Shown in pieces: positions 24,074-45,469 of a stretch of DNA of 64,000 nucleotides. Positions within the stretch are counted from its first letter, which is position 1; every line of letters begins with the position of its first letter. The DNA is from Halorhabdus tiamatea SARL4B (GTDB lineage Archaea > Halobacteriota > Halobacteria > Halobacteriales > Haloarculaceae): the NCBI RefSeq assembly GCF_000470655.1, contig NC_021921.1, positions 2,108,001-2,172,000 of the forward strand, read 5' to 3'. The position numbers and the translations under genes are program-made. The notes beneath the pieces were generated by a model. The model did not search any database. It had not been told where the DNA came from and was given only the letters and a program-made list of their open reading frames with translations.

Positions 24074-24094
24074 CGCGGCTCGAAATACAGGACA

Positions 24095-26697: not shown

Positions 26698-28218
26698 ATG
26701 ACACACGACAGCGACACGGACGAACCGACGGGAGAATCGACTACCAGTGACACGACTACCGATTCCGGGGGGCGATTACGCGATCGTCCGTCCGTCTCGG
26801 CCCAGACCCGTCGGCGGTTCCTCTTGACGGGAGCCGGCGTTGGATTGGGTGCGCTCGCGCTCAACGCCAGCGGGCCGGCCTCGGCGGCGGCGGTCGAGGA
26901 GGTCTGTAACTCCGACGAGTACGGATCGATCGACGTCGCCGACGGGTTCACCCTGGTCGACAACCAGTGGGGGAACTCCGAGGCGGATCAGTGTGTCTGG
27001 TTGAACGACGACGGCAGTTACGGCTACGACTTCGACGCAGCAGGCGGCAGCGGGATCAATTATCCCGAGGTGATCTGTGGGACGAAACCCTGGGGGACTG
27101 ACACCGGCGTCGCGGAGTTCCCGATCCGCCGGCGGGACGTCGAGGAACTCGTCATCGACGTCGAGGCCGAGTACACCGAATCCGGCGGCGAGTGGGACTT
27201 CGCCGAGGAGTGGTGGCTGATGGACCAGCCACCGAGCCAGGAGACCGGGACCCACGTCTACGAGATCATGCTCCTCCTGGACTGGAACGACCAGCACAGT
27301 CACGGTGCCGTCCAGGCCGAAACCGTCTGGACCGACCGCTTTGGCAACACCGTCGATCATTGGACGACCTACGCCGGCGGCGGGACGGACGCGACGTTCT
27401 ACATCTTCCGGATCCAGGGTGGCCACGACGGCGGCCGGATCGACCTGTCCGAGATCGTCGACTATCTCACCGCGGAACACGGTGTCGACGAGAGCCTCTG
27501 GCTCTCGGGTGTCGAACTCGGCAACGAGTACTGGGAGGGCAGTTCCGGCGAGACCACCTACAACACCTTCGACGTCACGATCAACGGGACGACCTACGAA
27601 AGCGGTAGCGGGACGGACACGCCGACGCCAACTCCGACCGAGACGCCGACGGAAACCGAGACGCCGACGGAAACCGAGACGCCGACGGAAACCGAGACGC
27701 CGACCGAGACAGAGACACCCACTGACACTGAGACCGAGACGCCGACAGAGACCGAGACGGAGACGGGCACGCCGTCGGGTGACGCCCTCGTCGTGAACGA
27801 CTACGACGGTGATCCGGCGTGGTCATCGAATCAGAACGACCTCGGTCAGTGGTGTGGGGCCGGGTCCTTCGAGAACGAGGGCGGCGACGTGCAGGACGGC
27901 GCACTCGTTATGGAGTATGACAACGCCGGCTGGTTCGTCGAACAGATCGGCCAGGACGTCTCGGGGTATTCGGACCTCGTCTTCGTCGTGAGCGGGGCCA
28001 ACGGCGGCGAAGAAGACGAGGTTCTGCTGGATTTCGGTGGCGCTCGCGGGCTCCTTTCGGCATTCACCGACGACGCCATCGGGACCTCGGCGTCGACGGT
28101 CACCGTCGACATGGATTCGGCAGGGATTGACCCGTCTTCCGGGGGGCTGTCGGTCCGACTGAACTTCTGGCAAGGCGGTGCCAGCACGCTCGAAATCGAC
28201 GAGATACGCTTCGAATAG
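26698..28218 (+). CDS. Secreted GH12 endoglucanase with TPTE linker and CBM-X
   Basis: 506 residues. Tat motif TRRRFLLTGAGVGLGALAL; GH12-type beta jelly roll ~66-300: LVDNQWGNSEADQCVWLNDD, INYPEVICGTKPWG, HVYEIMLLLDWND with nucleophile Glu189, and GVELGNEYWEG with acid/base Glu277. The 88-residue spacing of the two Glu fits GH12. A Thr/Pro/Glu linker (~307-359) made of 18-bp DNA repeats leads to CBM-X (~361-506). Expected endo-beta-1,4-glucanase. It differs from its neighbours in having no FnIII domain. Confidence 0.82.
   Translation: MTHDSDTDEPTGESTTSDTTTDSGGRLRDRPSVSAQTRRRFLLTGAGVGLGALALNASGPASAAAVEEVCNSDEYGSIDVADGFTLVDNQWGNSEADQCVWLNDDGSYGYDFDAAGGSGINYPEVICGTKPWGTDTGVAEFPIRRRDVEELVIDVEAEYTESGGEWDFAEEWWLMDQPPSQETGTHVYEIMLLLDWNDQHSHGAVQAETVWTDRFGNTVDHWTTYAGGGTDATFYIFRIQGGHDGGRIDLSEIVDYLTAEHGVDESLWLSGVELGNEYWEGSSGETTYNTFDVTINGTTYESGSGTDTPTPTPTETPTETETPTETETPTETETPTETETPTDTETETPTETETETGTPSGDALVVNDYDGDPAWSSNQNDLGQWCGAGSFENEGGDVQDGALVMEYDNAGWFVEQIGQDVSGYSDLVFVVSGANGGEEDEVLLDFGGARGLLSAFTDDAIGTSASTVTVDMDSAGIDPSSGGLSVRLNFWQGGASTLEIDEIRFE
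27640..27693 (+). repeat. 18-bp tandem repeat coding a TPTETE linker
   Basis: Three exact head-to-tail copies of GAGACGCCGACGGAAACC, followed by diverged copies to ~27765. They code the flexible linker between the GH12 domain and CBM-X. Such repeats change copy number easily. Confidence 0.85.
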
Positions 28219-28294
28219 CATTGCTCACGAACGGTCCAGGTCGCCCTTTCGTGGCAAGGGGGGTCGACCGGGCTAAACACACGGCTGACAACAG

Positions 28295-30553
28295 ATGACG
28301 ATACACAATCACGACACCGACGCATCGACGTCCGACTCCGTCGCGACCGACGATTCTGTCGGCTCGATGGGGCGGCGAGACTATCTCCAGACCGTCGCGG
28401 CAGCGGCCGCAGCCGTCGGAATTGGGACTTCCGCAACGGGAAGTGGGGCCGCCGAGACGGCTGACACTTCCTTGAGTATCGACGAACGCATCGAAGAACA
28501 CCGGACCGGCGATCTGGCGGTCGTCGTCGAGAACCCCGACGGTTCGACGGTCTCGGACGCCAAGGTCTCGATCGCCCAGCAGGAACACGCGTTCAGCTTC
28601 GGCACCGCCGTCAACGCCGACAGGCTCGTCAACGGGACCGACCCCGGCGACAACTACCGCGAGTACGTCCCGGCGCTGTTCAACACGGCGGTGCTCGGCA
28701 ACCACCACAAGTGGCGGTTCTGGGAGAACAACCAACAGGTCGCCGACGAGGCGACCACCTGGCTGCTCGATCAGGGGTTGGACATGCGCGGGCACGTCTG
28801 CCTCTGGGGTCGGGAGGACGTCGCGGCGATCCCGGACGACATCCAGACTGCGATCGAGGAGCGCGACGCCGAGACGATCCGCGAGCGCTCGATGGCTCAC
28901 ATCGAGGAGATCATCACTCACTACGGCGAGGACATCACCGACTGGGACGTCGTCAACGAGGCGATGCACGTCTACCAGCTCCAGCTCGGCGTCTACGGTG
29001 ACCGGATCGACACCGAGGAGCCCTGGAACGGTGAGGTCGTGCCCTGGACCTCCCCACTCCTGGCGGATTGGTACGAGCAGGCCGCGTCGGTCATCGAGGA
29101 GAACGACCTCGACGTCGGCATCGCGGTCAACGACTTCAACCAGTTCCCCTACGCCTACACAGACAACCGTTACGAGTCGGAGATCGAGCACATCAACACC
29201 GACGGAGCAGAGCTGGACACCCTCGGCCTCCAGGCACATATCGCCGCCCGGCAGGGCGAGTTCAACTCCAACGACGACCCGGACGGCCGGATCGACGCCG
29301 ATCAGGTCGTCTCGGAGATCAACACGTGGGCCGACCACGGCGCACGCGTGAAGATCACGGAGTTCGACACCTACAACGGCGACGACTGGAACGGAGACGA
29401 GGAGCGCGCCGACGTGACGGAGAACTACCTCAAAGGTGCGTTCAGCCATCCGGGCGTCGACGCGTTCATCATGTGGGGCTTCTGGGATGGCGACCACTGG
29501 GAGGACGAGGCGCCGCTGTTCTACGAGGACTGGTCACAGAAACCTGCATACGACGTCTGGACCGGCCTGGTCTACGACGAGTGGTGGACCGACGACAGCG
29601 GGACGACCGATGGCAGTGGGACCTACGCCACGACGGCGTTCCTGGGCGACCACGAGATCACGGTCAGCACCGACAGCGCGGAGACGACTGAGACAGTGTC
29701 GGTCTCGGACGCCTCTGGGACGACGACGGTGACAGTCACCGTCGAGGGTGACGCCAGCGCTGCGGACGACACCCAGCCACCGTCGGTGCCGGCGAACCTG
29801 ACCGCCACGGACGCGACGCCCTCCTCGATCACCGTCTCCTGGGACGGCGTCACCGACAACGGCACGTCCGGGCTGGACCAGTACGTCGTCTCCGTGGACG
29901 GCTCGCCGGACCAGACGGTCGGTGTCGGGATGACGACGGCGACGATCGAGGGGCTGTCGGCCGATAGCGCCTACGAGATCGCCGTCTCGGCGGTCGACGG
30001 TGCGGGCAACGAGTCCGAGGCCGCGACGGTATCGGCGACGACCGCGGCGAGTGATGATGGTACCGTCGGTGGTGATGGTGACGGTGGCGATGGCACCGAC
30101 GACGAGGAGACGCCTGCCGGGGCGCTGGTCGTCGACGACTACGACGGCGATCCGGGCTGGTCGTCGAACCGGAACGACCTCGGCCAGTGGTGTGGCGCGG
30201 GCTCCTTCGAGAACGGGGGCGGTGAGGTCGAAGACGGCGCACTCGTCCTCGAATACGACAACGCGGGGTGGTTCGTCGAACAGATCGGCCAGGACGTCAG
30301 CGAGTACTCGGATCTGGTGATGGTCCTGGGCGGTGACGACGCGCACGCGGACGAGTTCCTGCTGGATATCGGGGGCGTTCGCGGACTCCTCTCGAGATTC
30401 ACCGACGACACCATCGGGAGTTCGGCCTCGGCCGTCACCGTCGACATGGAATCGGCAGGCATCGACCCGTCGACCGGGGGACTCTCGGTTCGACTGAACT
30501 TCTGGCAGGGCGGCAGTGGCACGCTCGAAATCGAGGAGATCCGCTTCCAGTAG
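28295..30553 (+). CDS. Secreted GH10 xylanase, FnIII and CBM-X
   Basis: 752 residues. Tat motif GRRDYLQTVAAAAAAVG; a short N-terminal beta domain (VVVENPDGSTVSDAKVSI); GH10 catalytic barrel ~100-430 with acid/base Glu222 in DVVNEAMH and nucleophile Glu356 in KITEFDTYN; WGFWDGDHWEDEAP and VYDEWWTDDSGTT at its end; FnIII ~491-584; CBM-X ~609-752. Expected endo-beta-1,4-xylanase. It is closely related to the GH10 gene that follows, with nearly identical DNA stretches. Confidence 0.9.
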   Translation: MTIHNHDTDASTSDSVATDDSVGSMGRRDYLQTVAAAAAAVGIGTSATGSGAAETADTSLSIDERIEEHRTGDLAVVVENPDGSTVSDAKVSIAQQEHAFSFGTAVNADRLVNGTDPGDNYREYVPALFNTAVLGNHHKWRFWENNQQVADEATTWLLDQGLDMRGHVCLWGREDVAAIPDDIQTAIEERDAETIRERSMAHIEEIITHYGEDITDWDVVNEAMHVYQLQLGVYGDRIDTEEPWNGEVVPWTSPLLADWYEQAASVIEENDLDVGIAVNDFNQFPYAYTDNRYESEIEHINTDGAELDTLGLQAHIAARQGEFNSNDDPDGRIDADQVVSEINTWADHGARVKITEFDTYNGDDWNGDEERADVTENYLKGAFSHPGVDAFIMWGFWDGDHWEDEAPLFYEDWSQKPAYDVWTGLVYDEWWTDDSGTTDGSGTYATTAFLGDHEITVSTDSAETTETVSVSDASGTTTVTVTVEGDASAADDTQPPSVPANLTATDATPSSITVSWDGVTDNGTSGLDQYVVSVDGSPDQTVGVGMTTATIEGLSADSAYEIAVSAVDGAGNESEAATVSATTAASDDGTVGGDGDGGDGTDDEETPAGALVVDDYDGDPGWSSNRNDLGQWCGAGSFENGGGEVEDGALVLEYDNAGWFVEQIGQDVSEYSDLVMVLGGDDAHADEFLLDIGGVRGLLSRFTDDTIGSSASAVTVDMESAGIDPSTGGLSVRLNFWQGGSGTLEIEEIRFQ

Positions 30554-30587
30554 CGGATCGCCCTCGAAACGCAAACACCAACTCACG

Positions 30588-32936
30588 ATGACGCACGACG
30601 ATACACACGACAACGACGCATCGACGCACGAATCAGACGCCGTCGAAGACGGAAACGAGGTGAACGAACGCACGACTGGTCAAGCAGAGCCCGTCGCTTC
30701 GATGGGCCGGCGGGACTATCTCCGGGGCGTCGCAGCGGCGGCCGCGGCGGCCGGACTCGGCACGGCTGCCACGGGCAGTGGGGCCGCCGAGACCGCGGAC
30801 ACCTCCCTCGACGTCGACGAGCGCATCGCGGAACACCGCACGGGCGACCTCGAAGTCGTCGTCGAGAACCCCGATGGCTCGACAGTCTCCGGGGCCGACG
30901 TCTCGGTCGCTCAGCAGTCCCACGACTTCAACTGGGGGACGGCAGTCCACGCCGACACCCTGATCAACCAGAGCAGTGCCGGCGATAACTACCGGGAGTA
31001 CATCCCGGAGCTGTTCAACACGGCCGTGATGGAGAACCAGCACAAGTGGGCGCTGTGGGAGGACAACCAGCAACTCGCCGACGACGCCACGAACTGGATC
31101 CTGGACCAGGGGCTGAACATGCGCGGCCACGTCTGCGTCTACGGGGTCGACTACGCGGTTCCGTCGGACGTCCAGACGGCGATCGACAACGGGGACACCC
31201 AGACCATCCGCGAGCGGTCGATGGCCCACATCGACGAGATAATGAACCATTACGGGAGCGACATCCACGAGTGGGAGGTCGTCAACGAGGTCCAGCACTC
31301 GACGACGATCTTCGATCCGTTCACTTCGAATCCGACCACTTCCGACATCGTAGCCGACTGGTACCAGCAGGCCCAGGACGTCCGCCCTGACGGCGTCTCG
31401 CTCGCGATCAACGACTACAACGCCCTCGCGGGCAACTACGGCGGCGAGATCAGCACCTATCAGTCCCACGCCCAGCACCTCCTCGACAACGGCATCGACC
31501 TCGGGACGATCGGGCTCCAGTGTCACTTCGGCCAGAACGAGACGCTCTCGACGAGCCAGATCCTCCAGACGCTGAACGACTACGGCCAGCTCACGGATTC
31601 GATCAAGATCACCGAGTACGACCAGTCTGGCTCGGGGTGGTCTGAGGCCGAGAAGGCCGACTGGTTCGAACGCTTCCTCCGCGTGACCTTCAGTCACCCG
31701 GGCGTCGAGTCCTTCCTCGTCTGGGGCTTCTGGGACGGTCGCCACTGGGAGGACGACGCGCCGTTCTTCTACGAAGACTGGTCCACCAAGCCGAGCTACG
31801 ACGTCTGGACCGGCCTGGTCTACGACGAGTGGTGGACCGACGACAGCGGGACGACCGATGGCAGTGGAACCTACAGTACCGTGGCGTTCCTCGGCGAGCA
31901 CGAGATCTCGGTCAGTACCGACAGCGACTCGGTAACGACTACGACCTCCGTGACCGATTCCGACGGCACGACGACAGTCACGGTTACCGTCGAGGGCGAC
32001 GGCGGCGAGACCGGCGACACCCAGTCACCATCGACACCGACGAACCTGACCGCGACCGACGCGACGCCCTCCTCGATCACCGTCTCCTGGGACGGCGTCA
32101 CCGACAACGGCACGTCGGGACTCGATCACTATCGCGTCTTCCTCGACGGCAGCGAGGACCAGCAGGTGGGTGCCGGGATGACGACCGCGACGACCGACGG
32201 TCTCGACGCGGCGACGACCTACGGGATCGGGGTTTCAGCCGTCGATGGCGCGGGCAACGAGTCCGCGACGGCGACCGTCGAAGCGACGACAGGCGAGGCT
32301 GACGACGGCGAGGGAGACGACGCGGACGACCTGATCGCCGAGATGAATCCGAGTACGACCAGTCCCGGTGTCGGCGAGCGGGTCACGTTCAGCGTGACGG
32401 ACACGACCGACGCGGACAACTGGATCTCCTCGCTGTCGTGGGACTTCGGCGACGGCGCGACCGCGAGTGGTTGGTGGGCCGAACACACCTACGATTCCGC
32501 CGGGACGTACACCGTCTCGCTGACCGCGACCAACAACGACGACGAGTCCACCACTCACGAGGTCGAACTCGTCGTTGGCGACGGTCAGGGCGACGACCAG
32601 GACGGAGATGGCGGCGACGATGGCGATGGAGGGGACGGAAGCGACGACGGAGAAGGCGACGACGGCGATGGCACGACCGGCGATCTCGTCGCGGAGATCG
32701 ACCCGAGTACGACAGAGGCCAGCGTCGGCGAGACGGTCCAGTTCTGGCTGAACGATACGAGTGGTGGTGGCAACTGGATCACGGGCATCGACTGGGACCT
32801 CGGCAACGGCGACACGGCGAGTGGCTGGTACGCCGAGACGACTTACGCGTCGGCCGGCACCTACACCGTCTCGCTGACCGCGACCAACAACGCCGACGAA
32901 TCGACTACCGACGAGGTGACCATCACGGTCTCCTGA
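30588..32936 (+). CDS. Secreted GH10 xylanase, FnIII and two PKD
   Basis: 782 residues from the ATG at 30588, which matches the MTHD-type starts of its neighbours. Tat motif GRRDYLRGVAAAAAAAG; GH10 with Glu234 (EVVNEVQH) and Glu343 (KITEYDQSG); FnIII from ~478; PKD from ~581; Gly/Asp linker; second PKD ~700-782. It forms a pair with the GH10 upstream: same catalytic family, but a PKD end in place of CBM-X. The gap of 34 bp implies one transcript. Confidence 0.9.
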   Translation: MTHDDTHDNDASTHESDAVEDGNEVNERTTGQAEPVASMGRRDYLRGVAAAAAAAGLGTAATGSGAAETADTSLDVDERIAEHRTGDLEVVVENPDGSTVSGADVSVAQQSHDFNWGTAVHADTLINQSSAGDNYREYIPELFNTAVMENQHKWALWEDNQQLADDATNWILDQGLNMRGHVCVYGVDYAVPSDVQTAIDNGDTQTIRERSMAHIDEIMNHYGSDIHEWEVVNEVQHSTTIFDPFTSNPTTSDIVADWYQQAQDVRPDGVSLAINDYNALAGNYGGEISTYQSHAQHLLDNGIDLGTIGLQCHFGQNETLSTSQILQTLNDYGQLTDSIKITEYDQSGSGWSEAEKADWFERFLRVTFSHPGVESFLVWGFWDGRHWEDDAPFFYEDWSTKPSYDVWTGLVYDEWWTDDSGTTDGSGTYSTVAFLGEHEISVSTDSDSVTTTTSVTDSDGTTTVTVTVEGDGGETGDTQSPSTPTNLTATDATPSSITVSWDGVTDNGTSGLDHYRVFLDGSEDQQVGAGMTTATTDGLDAATTYGIGVSAVDGAGNESATATVEATTGEADDGEGDDADDLIAEMNPSTTSPGVGERVTFSVTDTTDADNWISSLSWDFGDGATASGWWAEHTYDSAGTYTVSLTATNNDDESTTHEVELVVGDGQGDDQDGDGGDDGDGGDGSDDGEGDDGDGTTGDLVAEIDPSTTEASVGETVQFWLNDTSGGGNWITGIDWDLGNGDTASGWYAETTYASAGTYTVSLTATNNADESTTDEVTITVS

Positions 32937-33081
32937 TCGGACCGTTCCACTGTCCGCCGTCGGTCGGCCGGGAACACGCAGAGGGACGTCACGACCGGCC
33001 CACTGGCGGCGGAGGTGTGACACTGTCGATGCGAAGGCGAGGCGACCCAAAGGGGCAATCACACGGATTGACCGGCGGACA

Positions 33082-33326
33082 CATGATCGACAACACGACA
33101 CGAACGACGGGACCGGCGGACACCCAGCGAACGATCTCGGGGGGTACGTCAGGACGCCAAGCGCTGGGTCACCTCGCTGTCGTGGGACTTCGACGACGGT
33201 ACGACCGTGCATGGCTGGTGGGTATAACACATCCACGAGTCGGCTGGCACAGACGCAATCGCGCTGACAGCGACCGACAACCAGGGGGGAGAGTACCACA
33301 CACGACTAGCGGTTACAGTCTCCTGA
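33082..33326 (+). pseudogene. Decayed secreted-enzyme gene: start plus PKD remnant
   Basis: An ATG at 33084 opens MIDNTTRTTGPADTQRTI, similar in tone to the acidic/Thr-rich starts of the neighbouring enzymes. From 33163, in another frame, the DNA reads WVTSLSWDFDDGTTVHGWW, a TAA stop, then HESAGTDAIALTATDNQGGE and LAVTVS before a TGA at 33324. That is a recognisable PKD domain with an internal stop. The Tat signal and catalytic domain are absent. A deletion inside an eleventh modular gene explains it best. Confidence 0.6.
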
Positions 33327-33447
33327 GCAGTCGCCCGATCCTCGCCGGATCGACGGCAGTCGGCGCAAGCGGCTCGGTCGGCAGCGACGGACCGACGCAG
33401 ACCGAACAGTCCGGCCCATGATCGGCGACGGACGGACACACCACACA

Positions 33448-35712
33448 ATGACACCAGACAGACCGACACCGCGAACCGAGACGGACGAATCGACGACTGA
33501 ACGAGACGAAGTCACGCACGAGGACGCCGAGACGTATCGCGCGCCAGGGACGTCCAGACGGTCGTTTCTGCAGACGACCGCGGCTGCGGGACTGGCCGGC
33601 CTGGGCGTCGGGAGCGGTGTCGTCGGCTCAGCGGCTGCAGCCGGTATTCCAACGCCGTGGCTCGAGGTCAATGGCAACCTCCTGCGGGACCCGGAGGGTA
33701 ACAAGGTGATCCTGCGGGGTGTGAACGTGATCGACCCCGCGCGGGCGGCCGAGGAGTGGCGCAAGAACATCGAGCCGCTGATCGAGTTGGCGACCGATCC
33801 GGGCGAGGGCTGGCACGCCCACGTCGTCCGGCTCCCGATGCAGCCCCAGGACATCGGGGGGCATGGCCCCGGGACGGCGGCCCCGACGCCCGGGTTCAGC
33901 CAGAGCGACTTACAGACCTACCTCGAGGCGTACGTCGATCCGGCGGTTGCGGCCGCCGCGGACGTCGGCGCGTACATCATGCTGGACTATCATCGCCACT
34001 ATCCGGAGGGGCCAGACTGGGACTCGCCGGAACTCGACGAGGAAATCCGGCTGTTCTGGAACGAAGTTGCGCCCCGCTACAGCGACCGTTCGCACGTCAT
34101 CTACGAACTCTACAACGAACCCAATACGCCCTATCCAGGGGCCGGCGATCCGACCGACGACGTCGGGATCACGGACCCCCGCGCCGAGGAGAACTATCTC
34201 TACTGGCGCGAGACGGCCCAGCCGTGGGTCGATCTCATCCGCGAGCACGCTTTACGGAACCTGATCGTCATCGGGTCGCCGCGCTGGAGTCAGTTCACCT
34301 ACTGGGCGGGCAAACACGAGTTCGAGGGCGACAACCTCGCCTACGCGGGGCACGTCTACGCCCACGAGAACCTCCGGCCGCTGTCGACGTACTTCGGCGA
34401 CCCCTCCGAGGAAGTCCCGGTGTTCATGAGCGAATTTGGGTACGGCACCGAGGGCTCGCCCTACCTCGTCGGGACCAACGAGGTCGAGGGCCAGCAGTTT
34501 CTCGAGCTCTTCGACGCCCACGACATCCACTGGCAGGCCTGGTGTTTCGACCACACGTGGTCGCCCGGCATGTTGAATCGCGACTACGAGGTCGACAGCC
34601 CACACGGCCGGCTGTTCAAGGAGCGACTTCGCGAGAAGCGCAACGACGACCTGCCAGCGAGCGCCGGCGGCGGTGACGAGACACCGCCTTCGACCCCGTC
34701 GAACCTCGCCGTGACCGAAACCAGCACCAACAGCGTCGCGCTGGCGTGGGACGCCACCACTGATTCCGGCGGATCCGGCCTCGAAAACTACGCCGTTTAC
34801 GTCGACAGCGCGCTCGACCATCGGGTCAGCGCCGGACCGACCACGACAGCGGTCGGTGGCCTGCTGCCGGAGACGACCTACGAGTTCGCCGTGAGCGCAA
34901 TCGACGGTGCTGGCAACGAGTCTACTCCGGCGACGGTGACGGTCGCGACGACCGACGGCGACGACGAGCAAGCGCCCACGATGCCGGAGAACCTCTCGGT
35001 GACTGGCTCGACTTCGGAATCCATCTCCGTGTCCTGGGACGCCGCGACCGACGAGGGTGGGTCCGGGCTGGATCACTACCTCGTCTACTTCGACGGGAGT
35101 CAGGACCAGCAGGTCGCGGCCGGCACGACCGAGGCCACCGTCAGCGGTCTCGACGCGGCGACGACCTACGAGATTGCGGTTTCGGCCGTCGACGCGGCGG
35201 GCAACGAGTCCGCCACGGCGACTGTACAGGCCACGACCGCGACGACCGAGGACGGCGGGGAAGACCCGCCCGAAGACGCCTTGGTCGACGACTACGACGG
35301 TGACCCGGCGTGGTCGAACCACCGGAACGATCTGGGCAACTGGTGTGGGGCCGGCTCCTTCGAGAACGGGGGCGGCGAGGTCAAGGACGGCGCACTCGTT
35401 CTCGAATACGACAACGCGGGATGGTTCGTCGAGCAGATCCTGGAAGACATTTCCGCGTACTCGGAGATCGTCTTCTCGATCGCCGGTGCGAGCGGCGGCG
35501 AGGGTGAACACTTCGTCGTCAGTGTCGGCGGCGCTCGAGGGCCCTTCAGCGACCTCGCGAGTAGCTCGATCGGAACGAGTCCCAGCGAGGTCGCCATCGA
35601 CCTAGATTCAGCCGGCGTCGACGCCGAAAACCCCGGTGAACTCCGCCTGAACTTCTGGCAGGCTGGCTCCGGAAGTGGGACGCTCCGGATCGAGGACATC
35701 AGACTGGAGTGA
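33448..35712 (+). CDS. Secreted GH5 glycanase, two FnIII and CBM-X
   Basis: 754 residues from ATG 33448 (an in-frame ATG at 33418 would add ten). Tat motif SRRSFLQTTAAAGLAGLGV; GH5 domain ~65-400, with Glu224 (LYNEPNTPY) and Glu329 (FMSEFGYGTEG); FnIII ~412-500 and ~508-600; CBM-X ~610-754, here shortened at the start (ALVDDYDGDPAW) and with a variant end. The catalytic part resembles the GH5 at 24095 more than the one at 21953. The stop overlaps a possible GTG start of the pectate lyase gene. Confidence 0.87.
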   Translation: MTPDRPTPRTETDESTTERDEVTHEDAETYRAPGTSRRSFLQTTAAAGLAGLGVGSGVVGSAAAAGIPTPWLEVNGNLLRDPEGNKVILRGVNVIDPARAAEEWRKNIEPLIELATDPGEGWHAHVVRLPMQPQDIGGHGPGTAAPTPGFSQSDLQTYLEAYVDPAVAAAADVGAYIMLDYHRHYPEGPDWDSPELDEEIRLFWNEVAPRYSDRSHVIYELYNEPNTPYPGAGDPTDDVGITDPRAEENYLYWRETAQPWVDLIREHALRNLIVIGSPRWSQFTYWAGKHEFEGDNLAYAGHVYAHENLRPLSTYFGDPSEEVPVFMSEFGYGTEGSPYLVGTNEVEGQQFLELFDAHDIHWQAWCFDHTWSPGMLNRDYEVDSPHGRLFKERLREKRNDDLPASAGGGDETPPSTPSNLAVTETSTNSVALAWDATTDSGGSGLENYAVYVDSALDHRVSAGPTTTAVGGLLPETTYEFAVSAIDGAGNESTPATVTVATTDGDDEQAPTMPENLSVTGSTSESISVSWDAATDEGGSGLDHYLVYFDGSQDQQVAAGTTEATVSGLDAATTYEIAVSAVDAAGNESATATVQATTATTEDGGEDPPEDALVDDYDGDPAWSNHRNDLGNWCGAGSFENGGGEVKDGALVLEYDNAGWFVEQILEDISAYSEIVFSIAGASGGEGEHFVVSVGGARGPFSDLASSSIGTSPSEVAIDLDSAGVDAENPGELRLNFWQAGSGSGTLRIEDIRLE

Positions 35713-35717
35713 CCACG

Positions 35718-37364
35718 ATGGCACGCCAAACAGGCGATAGCGACGTGGCCAGGAACTCGAATCTGACGCGCCGGCGGGTGCTGCAGGCGGGGGCCAGCGG
35801 ACTCCTCGCCGCGACCGTCGGGACAGGGGCACTTACCGCGACGGCTGGCGCAGTCACCACCGCGCAGATTTCTCCGACTGACGGGTTCGCGGATGTCGGG
35901 ACATGGCTCGAAGACGAAGATACGGACGTCTATCGGATTCAGGAGCCGACACGCTCGGCCGTCGAAGAGGCGTTCCACGCCTCTGGGCCGCGCGTCGTGA
36001 TCTTCGAGACAAGCGGGACGATCGACCTCGGCGGTGAGGCACTCGCGATCACCGAAGACAAGTGCTGGGTCGCAGGTCAGACGGCACCGTCACCGGGGAT
36101 CACGTTCGTCAAGGGGATGGTCCAGGTCGACGCCGACGACTGCGTCGTCCAGCACATCCGATTCCGGCACGGCCCCGGTTCGGACGGGGAGATCCAGAGC
36201 AACGACTCGCTCAACACGGCCGACGGGACGGAGAACAACGTCATCGATCACGTCACGGCCTCCTGGGGCACCGACGAGTGTCTCTCGGTCGGCTACGACA
36301 CCACCGACACGACGGTCACGAACTGCCTGGTCTACGAGGGACTGTACGATCCCTACGGCGACGGCTCGGATCACAACTACGCGACGCTGGTCGGCGACGG
36401 TGCCGAGAACGTCACGCTGGCGGGCAACGTCTGGGCGAAGTGTCGCGGTCGAGTCCCGCGATTGAAGAGCGAGACCCGGAGCGTCGTCGCGAACAACGTG
36501 ATGTACTTCTTCAACGAGGCGACCAACATGGACGGCGACACGGCGGCCGCCATCGTCGGGAACGTCTACATTCCCCAGGACGTCGAGGACACGCCGATCG
36601 AGGACGGCAACGCCTCTCTCTCGGACAACGTCACGGAGCCGAGTTCGACGCCGCTAACGGGTGGGACGGAGGCGTTGTCGGGTCGGCCGCTCTGGCCCGC
36701 TGAGTTCGACGCCTTGGACGCGAGTGCGGTCGAGTCACACAATCTCTCGAACGCCGGGGCGCGACCGGCCGACCGGACCGACAACGACGACCGAATCGTC
36801 TCCGAGATCCGGGATCGCGCCGGCGATGACTCCCTCGACTCGCCGTACGACTACTGGATCCCGCATCCAGATGCCGTCGGGGGATACCCTGACCTGCCTG
36901 TCAACACCCACTCGCTTTCGGTTCCTGACGCCGGCCTGCGTGAGTGGCTCGCCGAATGGGCCGCCGTCGTCGAGGACGGCAGCGGCGACCCCGATACCGG
37001 CGGGGGCGAAAGTGACAGGAATGACGACAGTTCGGGAAGCGGCGATGGTAGCCGCGATGCTACCAGTAGCGACGACAGCAGCGAGCGAGACGACGACACG
37101 AGTAGCGATGATCTGATCGCCGAACTCGATCCGGGGACGACGGATGCTGCAGTGGGTGAGTGGGTCCCGTTCGCGATCGTCGACACCACCGACAGCGATC
37201 ACTGGATCACGGGACTGTCCTGGTCTTTCGGCGACGGGACGACGGCGACTGGGTGGTGGAACGCCCACACGTACGAGTCGGCGGGGACCTACACCGTCGC
37301 GCTGACCGCGACGAACGACGCTGGCGAGTCGACCACCCACGAGGTGATAGTCACGGTTTCGTGA
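35718..37364 (+). CDS. Secreted pectate lyase (PL1-like) with PKD
   Basis: 548 residues. Tat motif TRRRVLQAGASGLLAATVG; parallel beta-helix ~55-410 with VVIFETSGTIDLGG, TAPSPGITFVKG, VVQHIRFRHGPG and VIDHVTASWGTDE, as in PL1 lyases; SRGRVPRLKS-like basic segment CRGRVPRLKSETR near the active site; acidic Ser/Asp linker; PKD ~465-548. It would cleave polygalacturonate by beta-elimination using Ca2+ and an Arg. ATG 35718 was chosen over GTG 35709. Confidence 0.83.
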   Translation: MARQTGDSDVARNSNLTRRRVLQAGASGLLAATVGTGALTATAGAVTTAQISPTDGFADVGTWLEDEDTDVYRIQEPTRSAVEEAFHASGPRVVIFETSGTIDLGGEALAITEDKCWVAGQTAPSPGITFVKGMVQVDADDCVVQHIRFRHGPGSDGEIQSNDSLNTADGTENNVIDHVTASWGTDECLSVGYDTTDTTVTNCLVYEGLYDPYGDGSDHNYATLVGDGAENVTLAGNVWAKCRGRVPRLKSETRSVVANNVMYFFNEATNMDGDTAAAIVGNVYIPQDVEDTPIEDGNASLSDNVTEPSSTPLTGGTEALSGRPLWPAEFDALDASAVESHNLSNAGARPADRTDNDDRIVSEIRDRAGDDSLDSPYDYWIPHPDAVGGYPDLPVNTHSLSVPDAGLREWLAEWAAVVEDGSGDPDTGGGESDRNDDSSGSGDGSRDATSSDDSSERDDDTSSDDLIAELDPGTTDAAVGEWVPFAIVDTTDSDHWITGLSWSFGDGTTATGWWNAHTYESAGTYTVALTATNDAGESTTHEVIVTVS

Positions 37365-37506
37365 TGGACTGAAACGGCCACATCAACGGCTTCCGGCCGA
37401 TACAGTGGCCGTCTTCCCTGCCGGAACGGCTCGTTCCCGGGTACCGGGGGGTGCTGGCCTGCTTGACTGCATCGGGGGATGACTGCACGCGAAGACATGA
37501 CAACAG

Positions 37507-40500
37507 ATGACAGACGACACGACTGAACCGACTCACGCATCGACGACTGATCACACTGACGAGACGGCTGGGAACCGGAAGGATCCCGGCCTCACGCCGT
37601 CACGCCGGACGTTCCTCGGAGCGATGGCGAGTGCTGGGACGATCGGTGCCGGGCTTTCGGTGAGCGTCGGGACCGGCGCCGCCGGCGTGCCAACACCACG
37701 CCTGCACACCGAAGGGCGATGGATCCGGGATCCGGCGGGCAACGACGTGACGCTCCGGGGCATGGCACCTGCTGACCCCGGCTTCTACCGGCAGTACCAT
37801 CCAAAGAGCTTCGAGGAAGTCCTCGAGTCGGCGACTGACACGGATCGGGGCTGGTATCCCAACACGGTCCGGCTACCCTGTACGCAGGACTCGATCGACG
37901 CGCTGGGGCTGGAAACGTACGTCACCGAGGTCCTCCGACCGGCGGTCGACCTGCTGGCCGCGCGTGACGTCTACGCGCTGGTTGATTTCCACCTCATCAG
38001 GCCCTACACACAGGACGCGACCGAGACCTACAACGAGGAAAACGACGAGGAACTCGCGCCGATCAACGACGTAATGACGACCTTCTGGGACCGGGTCGCC
38101 CCGGAGTTCGCCGAGGACGAACACGTCCTCTACGAGCTGTTCAACGAGCCGACCCAGCCGGCGATGTACGGCGACGACGCCGGAGCGTTCCAGGCCTGGC
38201 GGGACGCGGCCCAGCCCTGGGTCGACCTCGTCCGCGAACACGCACCGGAGACGCCCATCATCATCGGCTCGCCGCGGTGGACGTCGGTGACCCACATGGC
38301 CCCGGAGTATCCTTTCGAGGGGGAGAACCTGATCTACGCTGCCCACATCTACCCGGACAACGGCGCACCCGCTGACTTCGACCAGTGGTATGGTGAACCC
38401 GCCGCGGATGTCCCGGTCGTCGTCACGGAGTTCGGCTGGGATCCGGCCGGCGGGAGCGTCGATCAGGGCACTACGTCGGGGTGGGGCGAGCCGTTCCGCG
38501 AGTGGGTCGAGGGCTACGAGAACGTGGGGTGGATCTCGTGGTGTTTCGACGACTCCTGGGAGCCGGCCTTCTTCGAATCGCCGGATTCGGGCGCGAACGA
38601 GCCCTGGACGCTCAAGGACGACGCCGATCAGATGGGCGGATACATCAAGACCTGGCTCGAGGCAACCAAAGATCGGGGCATCCCTGAAAGTACGATCGAC
38701 GACGCCATCGCGCCGCCGGTTCCTTCTGGGTTCGAGGTAACTCGCTTGACCGAGATCGGCGTCGAGATCGCCTGGAACGCCGTCACCGACGAGGGCGAGG
38801 CCGGCCTTTCGCACTACAACGTCTACGTCGACGGCGAGCGCCGCGGGCAGGTGATCGACGGGACGGCGACGACGGTCGACGGTCTTCAGGCGAGTTCGAC
38901 CTACGAGATCGGGGTTTCTGCCGTCGACGAGGCCGGAAACGAGTCCAATCAGACGACGACGGTCGCCGAGACGGTCGCCACCGACGCCGGGCAGTCGGCG
39001 TTCGTCGAGCACGAGCTGCCCGGTCGGATCCAGGCCGAGGACTTCGACGAGGGTGGCCAGGGGATCGCCTATCACGACACGGGATCCGCCAACGAGGCCG
39101 GGGCCGACTACCGCGAGACGAGCGTCGACGTCGGGACGGCCGTCGAGTCGGGGTACAACGTCGGCTACACCGAGACCGGCGAGTGGCTGGAGTACACTGT
39201 TACCGTCGAGTCCGGCAGCAGCTACGAGGCCACCGTTCGGGTTGCCAACGGCGCTGAGTCGGGTGGCGACCTCCGGATCGAGGTCGACCGCGCCGAGGTG
39301 GCGACACAGAACGTCTGGCCGACCGGCGGCTGGGGCAACTTCGAGGAGATCCGTGTCGGCGAGGTCGACCTCCCGGCGGGCGAACACGTCGTCCGGATCG
39401 TCGTCGAGACCAGCGGCTGGAACTTCGACTGGATCGAGTTCACTGGCGGCGACGGTGGCGGCGGGGACGTGACCCCGCCGACTGCTCCCTCGAACCTCTC
39501 GGTGACCACGACGACGCCGTCATCCGCCGAGATCGCGTGGGATGCCGCGACCGACGAGGGCGGGAGCGGACTCGACCATTACGCAATTTCCGTCGACGGC
39601 AGTCTCGATCAGCAGGTTCCGGTCGGGACCACGTCGGCGACGATCGCCGATCTCGCGGCCGAGACGAGCTACGAGATCGGCGTCTCGGCCGTCGACGCGG
39701 CCGGCAACGAGTCGGCGACGGTGACTGTCGAAGCGACGACCGAGGGCGGCGACGACACGACGCCGCCGACCGTCCCGGGGGATCTCTCGGTCGAGAGCAC
39801 GAGCGAGTCCTCGATCGGTGTCGCCTGGAGCGCCGCTTCGGACGCCGGCACGGGCGTCGACACCTACGCCGTCTACGTCGACGGGAGTCTCGATCACGAG
39901 GTCGCAGCGGACCTCACGTCGGCGACGACCGACGGTCTGTCGGCGGCGACGACCTACGAGGTCGGCGTCAGCGCGATCGACGCGGCCGGCAACGAGTCGG
40001 CGACCGCGACCGTCGAAGCCCCGTCCGCGAAAGCCGATGACAGCGAAGGGGATGAGGACGACGAATCGACGGCAGACGCCCTCGTCGTCAACGACTACGA
40101 CGGCGACCCGGCATGGGCTGATCACCGCAACGACCTCGGCCAGTGGTGTGGGGCCGGGTCCTTCGAGAACGACAGCGGCGACGTCGAGGACGGGGCCTTG
40201 GTCTTCGAATACGACAACGCCGGGTGGTTCGTCGAGCAGGTCGCCCAGGACGTCAGCGACTACTCGACGGTCGTGTTGCGGGTCCGTGGTGAAAGCGGCG
40301 GCGAGGAGAGCGACCTCCGCTTCGACATGGGCGGCGCGCGTGACCTCCTCGCGAATCTGACCGACGACTCGATCGGGACGGACTTCACCGACGTCGCGAT
40401 CGACATGGCGTCGGCCGGGATCGACCCGTCGACCGGCGGCCTCTCGATCGGCCTGAACTTCTGGCAAGGGGGTGCGAGCACGCTCGAAATCGACGAGATC

Positions 40501-40512
40501 CGACTCGAATAG
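37507..40512 (+). CDS. Secreted GH5 glycanase with CBM6, three FnIII and CBM-X
   Basis: 1001 residues, the longest in the window. Tat motif SRRTFLGAMASAGTIGAGL; GH5 ~60-390 with Glu214 (LFNEPTQPA) and Glu308 (VVTEFGWDP); FnIII ~402-490; CBM6 ~501-647 (LPGRIQAEDFDEGGQG, VGYTETGEWLEYTV, FDWIEF); FnIII ~656-744 and ~751-838; CBM-X ~858-1001. CBM6 and CBM-X together suggest two substrate contacts. The catalytic part is the most diverged of the four GH5 copies. A 142-bp gap upstream may hold its own promoter. Confidence 0.9.
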   Translation: MTDDTTEPTHASTTDHTDETAGNRKDPGLTPSRRTFLGAMASAGTIGAGLSVSVGTGAAGVPTPRLHTEGRWIRDPAGNDVTLRGMAPADPGFYRQYHPKSFEEVLESATDTDRGWYPNTVRLPCTQDSIDALGLETYVTEVLRPAVDLLAARDVYALVDFHLIRPYTQDATETYNEENDEELAPINDVMTTFWDRVAPEFAEDEHVLYELFNEPTQPAMYGDDAGAFQAWRDAAQPWVDLVREHAPETPIIIGSPRWTSVTHMAPEYPFEGENLIYAAHIYPDNGAPADFDQWYGEPAADVPVVVTEFGWDPAGGSVDQGTTSGWGEPFREWVEGYENVGWISWCFDDSWEPAFFESPDSGANEPWTLKDDADQMGGYIKTWLEATKDRGIPESTIDDAIAPPVPSGFEVTRLTEIGVEIAWNAVTDEGEAGLSHYNVYVDGERRGQVIDGTATTVDGLQASSTYEIGVSAVDEAGNESNQTTTVAETVATDAGQSAFVEHELPGRIQAEDFDEGGQGIAYHDTGSANEAGADYRETSVDVGTAVESGYNVGYTETGEWLEYTVTVESGSSYEATVRVANGAESGGDLRIEVDRAEVATQNVWPTGGWGNFEEIRVGEVDLPAGEHVVRIVVETSGWNFDWIEFTGGDGGGGDVTPPTAPSNLSVTTTTPSSAEIAWDAATDEGGSGLDHYAISVDGSLDQQVPVGTTSATIADLAAETSYEIGVSAVDAAGNESATVTVEATTEGGDDTTPPTVPGDLSVESTSESSIGVAWSAASDAGTGVDTYAVYVDGSLDHEVAADLTSATTDGLSAATTYEVGVSAIDAAGNESATATVEAPSAKADDSEGDEDDESTADALVVNDYDGDPAWADHRNDLGQWCGAGSFENDSGDVEDGALVFEYDNAGWFVEQVAQDVSDYSTVVLRVRGESGGEESDLRFDMGGARDLLANLTDDSIGTDFTDVAIDMASAGIDPSTGGLSIGLNFWQGGASTLEIDEIRLE

Positions 40513-40614
40513 GCATCGAATCGCTCGATCACACGCCACCGGAAACCTCGGTATTGGCTGGGGTGAGGACGGCCGCGCTGTCCGGTGACCCGACCAACCA
40601 ACGACACGATATCC

Positions 40615-43569
40615 ATGACACATCACGACGCGAACTCACGGGGAATGGGACGGACGAACACTGACCGGGACGACGGATTGTTCCGTCGGGATCTGCTCGC
40701 GGCGATGGGGCTGGGCGCGGGATCGGTCGCACTCGGGACGGACGTCGGCACGCCGAGTGTGATCTCCCGCGCAGCCGGGCAGACGAGTCTGGAGCTTGAC
40801 TACGCCCACGCGCTCCAGCAGTCACTGTACTTCTACGACGCCAATCGCTGCGGCGCGACGACGATGGGCGAGCGTCTCCAGTGGCGCGGGGAGTGCCACC
40901 ATTCGGACACTGAGATCTCGCTCGATGCGGCGACCGAGGACGGCGGAACTAACCTCTCTGCGAGTTTCATCGATGAGTACAGCGACGTACTCGGTCCCGA
41001 CGGCACCGGGACGGTCGACGTCAGCGGCGGCTTTCACGACGCCGGCGACCACATGAAGTTCGGGCTTCCCCAGAGCTTCAGCGCCTCGACGCTTTCCTGG
41101 GCGCTCTACGAGTTCGAGGACGCCTTCCGGGACGTCGGGGTCTACGATCACATGGTCGACATCTTGCGACACTTCGCCGATTACTTCCTGCAGTCGACGT
41201 TCAGAAGCCAAGACGGTGACGTCGTCGCCTTCTGCTATCACGTCGGCGAGGGGAGCATCGATCACAACTACTGGGGGCCGCCGGAACTCCAGTCCTCCGA
41301 GGAGTATCCCCGGCCTGCCTACTTCGCCACCGCGGAGGATCCGGCCAGCGACCAGTGTGCCGGGGCGGCCGCGGCGCTTGCGATCACGTCGCTCGTCCTG
41401 GAGTCCGAGGACGCCGAGTACGCTGTGGAGTGTCTCGACACCGCCCAAGCCCTCTATGACTTCGCCGTCGAGAACCGCGGACTGGGGTACGACGGCGGCT
41501 TCTACGACTCGAGTTACGACGAGGACGAACTCTCCTGGGCGGCGGTCTGGTTGCACATCGCGACCGACGACGACGCGTATCTGGACGACATCCTCGCCAC
41601 CGACGATTCGGGCAACTACGCCGGGTATCTCGGACAGATCATCGACTCGACCGACGACGACTGGCAGAACATCTGGGTCCACTCCTGGGATACCGTCTGG
41701 AGCGGCGTCTTCCTCAAACTCGCGCCGATCACCGACGACCCCGAACACTGGCAGATCGCCCGCTGGAACCTGGAGTACCTCTCGGGCGGGGCAGTCGAAC
41801 ATGGGGACGACAACGACACGAACTACGCCTCGACCTCCGACGCCGGTTTCACCGTGCTCAACACGTGGGGATCGGCCCGGTACAACGCCGCCGCGCAGTT
41901 CCAGGCGATGGTCTACCGGAAGTACCGCGACACCGAGAAGGCAGTCGCGCTCACTGACTGGGCAGCAACCCAGATGAATTACATCATGGGTGCGAATCCG
42001 TTCGGGTACTCGCTGATCGTCGGGTTTACCGACGACCACGCCGAGCATCCCCACCACCGGGCGGCCCACGGCTCGAAGACAAACAGCATGGAGGAACCCG
42101 AAGAACACCGCCATACGCTGTGGGGTGCCCTGGTCGGCGGTCCCGACGAGGACGACACCCACGTCGACGAGACCTCCGACTACGTCTACAACGAGGTCGC
42201 GATCGACTTCAACGCAGGACTGGTCGGCGCGCTGGCCGGGTTCAACACGTTCTATTCGGATACCGGCGACCCGGTCGCGGCGTTCCCGCCGGACGAGGAA
42301 CCGATCGACGCCTACTACGCCGAGGGGGAGGTCCTCCAGGAGAACGCCGACCGGACACAGGTTCGGGTCACGATCCACAACGAGTCGATCCACCCGCCCC
42401 ATCGCGAGGACGGCCTCAGCGCACGCTACTTCATCGATATTAGCGAGTTGCGTGAGGCCGGCCAGTCGATCGACGCCGTCTCGGTCGAGGTCCAGTACGA
42501 CCAGCAAGCAACCGAGGGCGACGGGTCGACGGACGTCTCGGGGCCGATCGCCTGGGACGAGGACGCCGGCATCTACTACATCGAACTCGACTGGTCGGGC
42601 AACCAGATCTATGGCGCACGGGAGATTCAGATCTCGATGATCGCCGAGCAGGATGACAACTGGGAGAGCAACTGGGATCCATCGAACGACCCGAGCTTCC
42701 AGGACATCGGCGAGGAGGCGACCGTCACCGAGGCGATCCCCGTCTACCTCGACGGCGAACTGGTTTACGGCCAGCTTCCGGGTGAGTCCGAGTCCGAGCC
42801 CGACGACACGACCGCTCCGACGGCTCCCTCGAACCTCTTTGTGGTCGAGACGACAGCGTCCTCGGCCGAGATCGAGTGGGAGGCCGCCAGCGACGAGGGC
42901 GGTAGCGGCCTCGATCACTACACCATCTCCGTTGCGGGCGACTTCGATCAGCAGGTCGAGGCCGAAACGACGGGTACGACCGTCGAGGAACTGGACGCCG
43001 AGACGACCTACGAGATCGGCGTCTCGGCGGTCGACGCTGCCGGCAACGAGTCCGATACGGTAACCGTCGAGGCGACGACCGACGAGGCCGACGACGGCGA
43101 GGACGACAGCGATGACGAGGAATCACCGACGGATGCCCTCGTCGTCAACGACTACGATGGCGACCCGGCGTGGTCGAGCAATCGCAATGACCTCGGCCAG
43201 TGGTGTGGGGCCGGCTCCTTCGAGAACGGGAGCGGCGATGTCGAAGACGGTGCCCTGGTCCTCGAATACGACAACGGCGGCTGGTATCAAGAGCAGATCA
43301 ACCAGGCGGTCGACGACTATTCGAGCGTCGTGCTCGAAGTCAGCGGTGCCAACGGCGGCGAAGAGAGCGAGATCCGCTTCGCGATGGATGGCGTCTCGGA
43401 CTTGCTTGCGAACCTGACTGACGATTCGATCGGGGCGAGTGCCGGCGAGGTACGGATCGACATGGAGTCGGCGGGTATCGATCCGGCCGCTCAGGGGCTT
43501 GCAGTCCGGCTAAACTTCTGGCAAGGAGGCAACAGTACGCTCGAAATCAAGGAAGTCCGACTCGAGTGA
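40615..43569 (+). CDS. Secreted GH9 cellulase with CBM3-like domain, FnIII and CBM-X
   Basis: 984 residues from ATG 40615. Tat-like FRRDLLAAMGLGAGSVAL; GH9 (alpha/alpha)6 barrel ~58-555 with base Asp142/Asp145 in GGFHDAGDHMKF and acid Glu527 in YVYNEVAIDFNAG; MGANPFGYSLIVGFTDDH. Residues ~561-722 (VRVTIHNESIHPPHREDGLS, ISMIAEQDDNWESNWDPSND) match a family-3 module, as in processive GH9-CBM3c endoglucanases. Then FnIII ~731-822 and CBM-X ~840-984. It is the only inverting cellulase of the set. Confidence 0.9.
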   Translation: MTHHDANSRGMGRTNTDRDDGLFRRDLLAAMGLGAGSVALGTDVGTPSVISRAAGQTSLELDYAHALQQSLYFYDANRCGATTMGERLQWRGECHHSDTEISLDAATEDGGTNLSASFIDEYSDVLGPDGTGTVDVSGGFHDAGDHMKFGLPQSFSASTLSWALYEFEDAFRDVGVYDHMVDILRHFADYFLQSTFRSQDGDVVAFCYHVGEGSIDHNYWGPPELQSSEEYPRPAYFATAEDPASDQCAGAAAALAITSLVLESEDAEYAVECLDTAQALYDFAVENRGLGYDGGFYDSSYDEDELSWAAVWLHIATDDDAYLDDILATDDSGNYAGYLGQIIDSTDDDWQNIWVHSWDTVWSGVFLKLAPITDDPEHWQIARWNLEYLSGGAVEHGDDNDTNYASTSDAGFTVLNTWGSARYNAAAQFQAMVYRKYRDTEKAVALTDWAATQMNYIMGANPFGYSLIVGFTDDHAEHPHHRAAHGSKTNSMEEPEEHRHTLWGALVGGPDEDDTHVDETSDYVYNEVAIDFNAGLVGALAGFNTFYSDTGDPVAAFPPDEEPIDAYYAEGEVLQENADRTQVRVTIHNESIHPPHREDGLSARYFIDISELREAGQSIDAVSVEVQYDQQATEGDGSTDVSGPIAWDEDAGIYYIELDWSGNQIYGAREIQISMIAEQDDNWESNWDPSNDPSFQDIGEEATVTEAIPVYLDGELVYGQLPGESESEPDDTTAPTAPSNLFVVETTASSAEIEWEAASDEGGSGLDHYTISVAGDFDQQVEAETTGTTVEELDAETTYEIGVSAVDAAGNESDTVTVEATTDEADDGEDDSDDEESPTDALVVNDYDGDPAWSSNRNDLGQWCGAGSFENGSGDVEDGALVLEYDNGGWYQEQINQAVDDYSSVVLEVSGANGGEESEIRFAMDGVSDLLANLTDDSIGASAGEVRIDMESAGIDPAAQGLAVRLNFWQGGNSTLEIKEVRLE

Positions 43570-43684
43570 GTGGTCCGCCGCTCGCTCTGATCTCCGAACA
43601 CGTGTCGTCTCGGTGACGATCGCCGGCGAAGGTTTTTCCGGTTCCCTCACTCTTTTAGACAATACACTGGTACTATCAATTGGT

Positions 43685-45469
43685 ATGGTCAAACGAAGGG
43701 CTGTATTGAAGGGGAGTATCGCATTCGGGAGTCTGGGTCTGGCGACGTCGGTCCTGGGTCAGGATCACTCGCCGCTGGTCGTCCACGCGTTCGACGGGGG
43801 AACCTATCCGGGCTCCAACGACCTCGGCAACTGGGCCGACGCGGGGAGTTTCGCCAACGGGAGCGGATCGGGCGAGATCGAAAACGGTGCCCTCCGCCTG
43901 GAGTACGACAACGCCGGCTGGTTCGGGAGCAACGTTTCCCAGTCGATCGGCGACTATCAGTATCTCACCCTTCGAATTCGGGGGGACGAGGGTGGCGAGC
44001 AATCGGATTTCACACTCAAGATCGGTGGCGTCTCGGATCTCCTGGGCAACCTGACTGACGATTCTATCGGGACCGAGTATTCGACTGTCTCGATCGACCT
44101 CGAATCAGTCGGTGCTGATCTCGAAAACCCACAGGCAGTCAGATTCAACTTCTGGCAAGGGTCCTCGGGGGCCGTCGAGATCGATCGGATCGCGGTGACG
44201 ACAGACCCCGACGACGACGGTTCGGAGACGCCAACGGAGACGCCCGAAGACACGCCGACCGAGACGGAACCCGACGACGGGGAGTCGACCTGGGACGTCC
44301 CGTTCCTGGACCGGCCCCCGGAGCCTGATACGCTCCCCGCCGATATCACCGGCAGCACGACGGTCGCCGAACTGTACGAACACTTCGACGACCCCTACTA
44401 CGTCCCGCGTGACTTCACGGACTATCTGCCCGGCGAGACGTCCTCGACCGGCCAGGCCTGGACGGACGCCGAGAAGGCCGAGGAGTTCGGCTACGACGAG
44501 ACGGCCGTCCAGAACAACATCAGCGACGGGTCGCTGACCCTCGACCAGCTCGGCACGCAGGCGTTGCCCTACGTCCAGCAACTCGCCGACAACGACTTCC
44601 CCGCCCATGCGACCGTGAAACTTCTCCCGCGGCTCGCGCTGTTGCCGGATGAGACCGAAGACCCCGGCACGCACGACGACCCCGACAACATCTGGGACGA
44701 GACCGCAGGCCCGACCCAAGCGACGAACGGTCCCGACCAGTTCATCCAGGACCGTTGGCCGACGGACGCCCGAACGTACCAGCCTGACGAGGTCCGCGTG
44801 CGTGACCGCGTCCACGACCAGCCGGAGTACGACGACAGCCGCGAGTGGGGGAGTTCGGCTGACCTGCCAGAGGACGTCCTCAACAACCCGGACAACCCCA
44901 TCCACGAGATGGTGGCCGACAAGGTCGATCCGCGGACCGGCGAGTCGCTTGGCGGCGACGGCTTCACTGCCAACGCGCCGATGGAGGCGTCCGTCGAGAT
45001 CCACGAGAACGGCGGCGGCTACTGGAACCAGTACCTCGTTCTGAAGAACACCAGCGAGGTGCCGTACTTCCAGGACGGCATGGTCATCACGTGGCTCGGC
45101 CCGTCGGGTGACGCCGCGAACCTCGCGGACGGCCACTGGAACAATCCTCACCGACCGAGCCAGTCGCTGGGCCATCCTCAGCGCGACGTCATCGAGGTCA
45201 TCCATCCCGACTACGAAGGCATGTCGGCCTACGCCGTCCGGTGTGCGAACCACGACGAGCCCTACCACATGCGGACGATCTACCCGAACCAGCAGGTCGC
45301 CATGGAGATCGGGACCCCCGCGAACGCGGACCGCTGGTCCTCGTCTTCGGAGCGCCAGGACGCAGTCGAGACGATGCTCGACTCGCTACACGTCGAACTC
45401 GAGACCAACCTCAGCCGGAACGACCGCCTCATCGACGCCATCGACCTGACGTATCGCGTCCCGAACTGA
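43685..45469 (+). CDS. Tat-exported protein: N-terminal CBM-X and unknown C-terminal domain
   Basis: 594 residues. Tat motif VKRRAVLKGSIAFGSLGL; a CBM-X copy, unusually N-terminal, at ~30-180 (LEYDNAGWFGSNVSQSIGD, RFNFWQGSSGAVEIDRI); TPTETPEDTPTE linker; then ~395 residues that match no family I know. That domain has one Cys, many Asp/Pro, and motifs such as VEIHENGGGYWNQYLVLKN, WLGPSGDAANLADGHWNNPH and CANHDEPYHMRTIYPNQQ, with several His, Tyr and Trp that could line an active site. Being last in a cluster of polysaccharidases and joined to CBM-X, it may be a new carbohydrate-active enzyme. Start ATG 43685 puts the Tat signal at the N-terminus. Confidence 0.7.
   Translation: MVKRRAVLKGSIAFGSLGLATSVLGQDHSPLVVHAFDGGTYPGSNDLGNWADAGSFANGSGSGEIENGALRLEYDNAGWFGSNVSQSIGDYQYLTLRIRGDEGGEQSDFTLKIGGVSDLLGNLTDDSIGTEYSTVSIDLESVGADLENPQAVRFNFWQGSSGAVEIDRIAVTTDPDDDGSETPTETPEDTPTETEPDDGESTWDVPFLDRPPEPDTLPADITGSTTVAELYEHFDDPYYVPRDFTDYLPGETSSTGQAWTDAEKAEEFGYDETAVQNNISDGSLTLDQLGTQALPYVQQLADNDFPAHATVKLLPRLALLPDETEDPGTHDDPDNIWDETAGPTQATNGPDQFIQDRWPTDARTYQPDEVRVRDRVHDQPEYDDSREWGSSADLPEDVLNNPDNPIHEMVADKVDPRTGESLGGDGFTANAPMEASVEIHENGGGYWNQYLVLKNTSEVPYFQDGMVITWLGPSGDAANLADGHWNNPHRPSQSLGHPQRDVIEVIHPDYEGMSAYAVRCANHDEPYHMRTIYPNQQVAMEIGTPANADRWSSSSERQDAVETMLDSLHVELETNLSRNDRLIDAIDLTYRVPN

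Follow-up and report, generated by a model that had tools for sequence, protein, structure and literature searches.

A conserved, unclassified haloarchaeal domain with exchangeable carbohydrate-binding modules: a possible new enzyme class in cellulose and chitin gene clusters

The window analysed here is a stretch of 64,000 nucleotides from Halorhabdus tiamatea SARL4B, whose genome comprises 3,146,160 bases in two contigs, and it carries a co-oriented island of cellulase and xylanase genes. The gene that closes the island encodes a protein of secretion-type architecture in which a carbohydrate-binding module, termed CBM-X, precedes a long conserved domain, termed DOM. The features are as follows, with DOM residues numbered from residue 1 at window position 44276.

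21911..40512, + strand: the greater part of the island, in the order GH5, GH5, GH12, GH10, GH10, GH5, pectate-lyase-like, GH5, several with a C-terminal CBM-X (profile matches, CBM-X search)
40585..43569, + strand: GH9 cellulase with CBM3, fn3 and a C-terminal CBM-X, the upstream neighbour of the DOM gene (profile matches, CBM-X search)
43685..43768, + strand: Tat-type signal peptide, MVKRRAVLKGSIAFGSLGLATSVLG and a few residues (read from the sequence)
43775..44200, + strand: CBM-X, the putative N-terminal carbohydrate-binding module (copy count in the window, AlphaFold, fold matches)
44201..44329, + strand: linker rich in Thr, Glu and Pro, TETPEDTPTETE... (about 44200-44280), and spacer (sequence)
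44330..45466, + strand: DOM, unclassified conserved domain of about 379 residues (database negatives and homologs)
45002..45004, + strand: His243, a possible ligand or catalytic residue (conserved in 45/46)
45170..45187, + strand: GHPQRD motif, with H300, R303 and D304 invariant in 46/46 (alignment)
45242..45277, + strand: CANHDEPYHMRT motif, with H326, P329, Y330 and R333 invariant, C323 and H331 not conserved (alignment)
45389..45397, + strand: HVE motif, with H372 and E374 invariant in 46/46 (alignment)
45467-45469, + strand: stop codon of the DOM gene

The gene lies within an uninterrupted open reading frame of 618 codons (43613-45469, + strand, from the list of frames in the window). Its probable start is the ATG at 43685, from which a Tat-like MVKRRAVLKG is read; the RR-x-x-LK pattern recurs in DOM homologs, and the mature N-terminus of the window protein is not a His. 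A sequence-only reading of this DNA had described the gene as the last of the island, with CBM-X at the N-terminus rather than the end, a TPTE linker and a long unrecognised domain, and this description is borne out. The following coding gene (45645-46559) is on the opposite strand; six of the seven CBM-X copies in the window sit at the C-terminus of glycoside hydrolases (end positions 24061, 28206, 30541, 35700, 40500 and 43557), leaving that of the DOM protein as the sole N-terminal one; and both linker and domain are found within 43685-45469, the domain having no database match. The GH9 protein (40585-43569) is itself an archaeal enzyme uniting CBM3 (PF00942, E 1.6e-11), fn3 and CBM-X in a single chain. 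Just 3' of the island, at 46840-47750, is a transposase-like gene with a zinc-ribbon, IS1595-like by eye, broken into two overlapping frames (46840-47373 and 47370-47750).

Pfam CBM profiles find no match for CBM-X in 43613-44275. An AlphaFold model built from an alignment of 28 copies (from the window and loci L002-L006) has a pLDDT of 79, with low confidence at residues 9-32. Its top fold match is CBM30 (2c24; Z 12.8, rmsd 2.8 over 127 aligned residues; Foldseek E 3.1e-5), followed by CBM11 (6r31; Z 11.4), with CBM29 and CBM4 ranking behind. All four are jelly-roll modules binding cellulose and beta-glucans. The model has the same beta-jelly-roll fold as CBM30 and CBM11, which are cellulosomal modules of Clostridium thermocellum, although identity to them is just ~21% and ~15%, respectively. 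This resemblance supports the assignment of CBM-X as a carbohydrate-binding module.

DOM has no match among Pfam, NCBIfam, PHROGs or PDB sequences. GH catalytic profiles from Pfam and NCBIfam do not match it, those from Pfam do not match its relatives either, and a literature search found no published description of it as a domain. Homologs (37-96% identity) are present in 39 of 391 Halobacteria genomes, spread over 20 of 86 genera, and dN/dS against four relatives is 0.09-0.29. By these sequence measures DOM is a real coding domain under purifying selection, forming an unclassified family. In a draw of 295 genomes across its own phylum, matches were exclusively halobacterial and in the window's own order; searches of viral contigs found none, and a plasmid search with the chitin-side members described below matched only Halocatena. 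Confinement to the Halobacteria, as judged from the phylum draw, plasmids and viral contigs, is provisional. Matches on Rhizobium plasmids (tblastn, E 0.5-8) were rejected as chance, one of them reading as a fumarylacetoacetate-hydrolase-type protein, and a weak match to PDB 9kkt, of that same type of family, was likewise taken as chance. At one locus (L106, genome G638), DOM is represented by its C-terminal third alone (profile positions 263-390 in a 177-codon frame), as a remnant or split gene.

The 40 copies fall into two sets by architecture. CBM-X is the fusion partner in Halorhabdus-like and Halosimplex genomes and in some Natrialbaceae-like ones; in Halocatena DOM stands bare behind a signal peptide, and the remaining copies are fused to CBM5/12 and/or PKD domains (genus names in these groups are inferred, save those of named loci). 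Genes for GH5, GH9, GH10 or GH12 cellulases and xylanases lie within 10 kb of 16 of the 18 CBM-X or bare copies, and GH18 within 10 kb of one. For the 22 CBM5/12 or PKD copies the picture is reversed, with GH18 chitinase genes within 10 kb of 15 and cellulases near none. Nine copies lack a matching GH gene at this distance, one of these being on a broken contig; one CBM5 copy is close to a contig end, and the GH18 of its genome is on a different contig. When a tree is built from DOM alone, the copies with CBM-X and the bare ones group in a single clade (support 100/100), and therefore exchange of the binding module coincides with the change of neighbourhood. One genome (G321) holds both paralogs, a CBM-X copy (L048) in a cellulase cluster and a CBM5-PKD copy (L049) in a chitinase cluster. 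At the level of whole genomes, GH18 or GH9 occurs in 37 of 39 DOM genomes vs 24 of 352 others (Fisher p 4e-33, a value inflated by genome relatedness).

The sequence-only reading had argued from guilt by association for polysaccharide breakdown or modification. The association extends far beyond this locus, to cellulase and chitinase clusters alike, and the CBM suits the cluster type. Among the substrates it had listed, cellulose is supported and chitin has to be added, while xylan and pectin find no support. The cellulose-side distribution is in line with the predictions of a comparative study of cellulose-using haloarchaea, in which H. tiamatea, H. utahensis and Halosimplex carlsbadense were predicted to be cellulotrophic (PMC10267330). 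GH18 clusters have been noted in the literature to contain one or two CBM5/PKD proteins each, and these very probably include chitin-side DOM members; the text consulted records their presence alone and describes no conserved domain, cellulose-side counterpart, CBM exchange or activity. The chitin clusters contain other CBM5-PKD proteins (L065:5846-7267 and L049:10554-11894), the other ~300 residues of which match nothing in Pfam. They may be divergent GH18-like enzymes, since a similar protein (L058:5082-6452) weakly matches GH18.

Within DOM, H300, H326, H372, D304 and E374 are invariant in all 46 distinct sequences, as are D177, R293, R303, R322, R333, R394, Y330, Y336, W161 and W191; H243 is kept in 45. 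The two motifs that had been proposed as part of a catalytic or copper site, ENGGGYWNQYLVLKN (45005-45049) and CANHDEPYHMRT (45242-45277), are both present, but conservation singles out only some of their residues: H326, P329, Y330 and R333 never change, whereas Cys323, His331 and the ENGGG stretch vary. Cys323 is ruled out as a metal ligand on this ground, and the conserved H243 sits just N-terminal of the variable ENGGG stretch. An alignment of 27 sequences that share 37-80% identity with the window contains 36 invariant columns, of which 26 are H, D, E, R, N, Q, W or Y and three are His. This pattern looks like an active site. With no known family matching and so many invariant polar residues, three or four His among them, DOM may represent a new enzyme class. 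An AlphaFold run on DOM, from an alignment of six close sequences (the window and five relatives), gave a pLDDT of 36, too low for a usable model.

The same residues bear on whether DOM is an enzyme at all. Its combination with CBMs and PKD domains would befit a non-catalytic module that either loosens polymers in the manner of expansin or swollenin or is a large module for binding or for attachment to the cell surface, and a dual role on cellulose and chitin would come easily to such a module. So many invariant polar and aromatic columns at this divergence are nevertheless more active-site-like, the invariant residues of CBM-X being, by contrast, chiefly Gly, Asp and Trp, and no anchor domain is seen in the window protein. 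We consider a non-catalytic DOM quite unlikely. A further reading makes DOM an esterase, deacetylase or lyase that leaves the main chain alone and modifies its side groups or the polymers associated with it. The invariant His and Asp could build a metal hydrolase site, and other deacetylases (CE14) occur in chitin clusters (PMC12343721), but cellulose has no acetyl groups, yet an entire DOM clade is found in cellulase clusters, and neither CE nor PL profiles match the domain; this reading is improbable.

Starting from the observed secretion-type architecture, matching of CBM to cluster, co-occurrence and invariant residues, we infer that DOM is an auxiliary catalytic domain acting on insoluble beta-1,4-polysaccharides through a metal-dependent, probably redox centre, and we give this explanation, the best available, a probability of roughly 0.42. 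The secreted protein would act at the surface of insoluble beta-1,4-linked polysaccharides, positioned by its N-terminal module, with CBM-X directing it to cellulose and CBM5/12 to chitin. DOM would attack or loosen the chain surface, and the neighbouring GH5/9/10/12 or GH18/20 enzymes would digest the loosened or cut chains. The proposed centre would be formed by the invariant H300, H326 and H372 together with H243, with D304, E374 and nearby Tyr and Arg residues. The parts of this scheme differ in strength. A CBM-targeted auxiliary role in cellulose and chitin breakdown is likely; metal-dependent, perhaps oxidative, catalysis is a tentative proposal that falls somewhat short of even odds.

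Lytic polysaccharide monooxygenases (LPMOs) of family AA10 (PF03067) are the obvious comparison. They too are secreted, fused to CBMs, found in polysaccharide degraders and, as one family, serve for both cellulose and chitin. The likeness ends at the sequence. PF03067 matches neither DOM nor 26 relatives, and profile-profile comparison of DOM with haloarchaeal AA10 gives a probability of 0.2%. DOM is ~380 residues long vs ~180 for AA10. AA10 proteins of the same class read ..AAAHG.., with His directly after the signal peptide, whereas DOM proteins never open the mature chain with the N-terminal His of a histidine brace, their signal peptides leading instead to GQES.., GQSAP.., AD.. or a CBM. 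From the missing profile match and N-terminal His, we conclude that DOM is not an LPMO by sequence, although its genomic habits are LPMO-like; it would fill the LPMO role without being one. AA10 LPMOs occur in only four of the 39 DOM genomes, the window's own being among the 35 without. Genuine AA10 genes were found in four haloarchaeal genomes (L086-L089, in G041, G059, G113 and G308), and in two of them (L086, L089) the His after the signal peptide is accompanied by CBM5-type modules.

A hint of redox chemistry comes from four genomes in which the DOM polypeptide (L063, L064, L066, L067) also carries CBM5/12 modules, five PKD domains and a cupredoxin domain of the plastocyanin/azurin type (PF00127). 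The type-1 copper ligands H, C, H and M were read as PH...YxCxxHPxxM in L063, L064 and L067 and pattern-matched in L066; PF00127 scores 24.0 bits on L063 (cut-off 21.2) and 18.4, below the cut-off, on L064. The cupredoxin is a domain separate from DOM, which does not itself match PF00127, and it is absent from the window protein; the fused copies form a single sub-branch, and their four genes are not adjacent to GH18. Because a copper electron carrier shares its chain in this sub-branch, the fusion suggests redox chemistry for DOM. The boldest form of the proposal is doubtful: it makes DOM a metal-dependent oxidative polysaccharide-degrading enzyme of a new class, with no relation to LPMOs, which haloarchaea would use on cellulose and chitin alike, the substrate being set by CBM exchange and some species having a built-in copper electron-transfer domain.

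The main argument against an LPMO-like reaction is that O2-dependent chemistry fits poorly with H. tiamatea, described as a fermenter isolated from oxygen-free brine (PMC7074082). Despite this origin, DOM is under purifying selection there, with a dN/dS of 0.09 against a same-genus relative. Oxygen is not required if DOM is a new family of glycoside hydrolase, or another non-redox chain-cutting enzyme, for beta-1,4-glucan and beta-1,4-GlcNAc, which fits the fermenting host (PMC7074082). The invariant Asp and Glu of DOM suit a hydrolase equally well, several acids, for example D177, D304 and E374, being available for the purpose, and its neighbours are nearly all hydrolases sharing the same CBMs. 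Against this, DOM is usually present as one gene per genome beside many GH genes, as expected for an auxiliary activity, where hydrolase families are multi-copy; His, Arg, Asn and Gln outweigh the acids among its invariant residues; GH profiles fail to match it; and the cupredoxin fusion is left unexplained. A hydrolase is accordingly an unlikely reading, though it ranks above the other rivals.

Little is known of the means by which haloarchaea break down crystalline cellulose and chitin (PMC10267330). DOM offers a specific candidate for the missing auxiliary activity, being conserved, secreted, associated with both substrates and able to swap its binding module, in genomes that mostly have no AA10. 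The activity, if it is DOM's, would be salt-tolerant. DOM is also a sequence marker linking cellulose-using and chitin-using haloarchaea.

Some DOM genomes also carry dockerins and cohesins. One of 2.7 Mb (G002, with loci L053 and L108) has 56 dockerin and two cohesin matches. Of 12 genomes tested, cohesins are present in exactly eight (G002, G062, G077, G103, G104, G264, G321 and G344) and absent from G000, G050, G160 and G360; the eight are those with a separate protein of 239-266 residues combining CBM-X and dockerin near DOM. From these matches, G002 and the other seven are candidates for a haloarchaeal cellulosome. At four loci of dockerin-bearing genomes (L045, L046, L048 and L075), several cellulase-cluster proteins end in dockerin-like C-termini, which replace the CBM-X of their Halorhabdus and Halosimplex counterparts, as if targeting had shifted from the individual enzymes to a shared partner.
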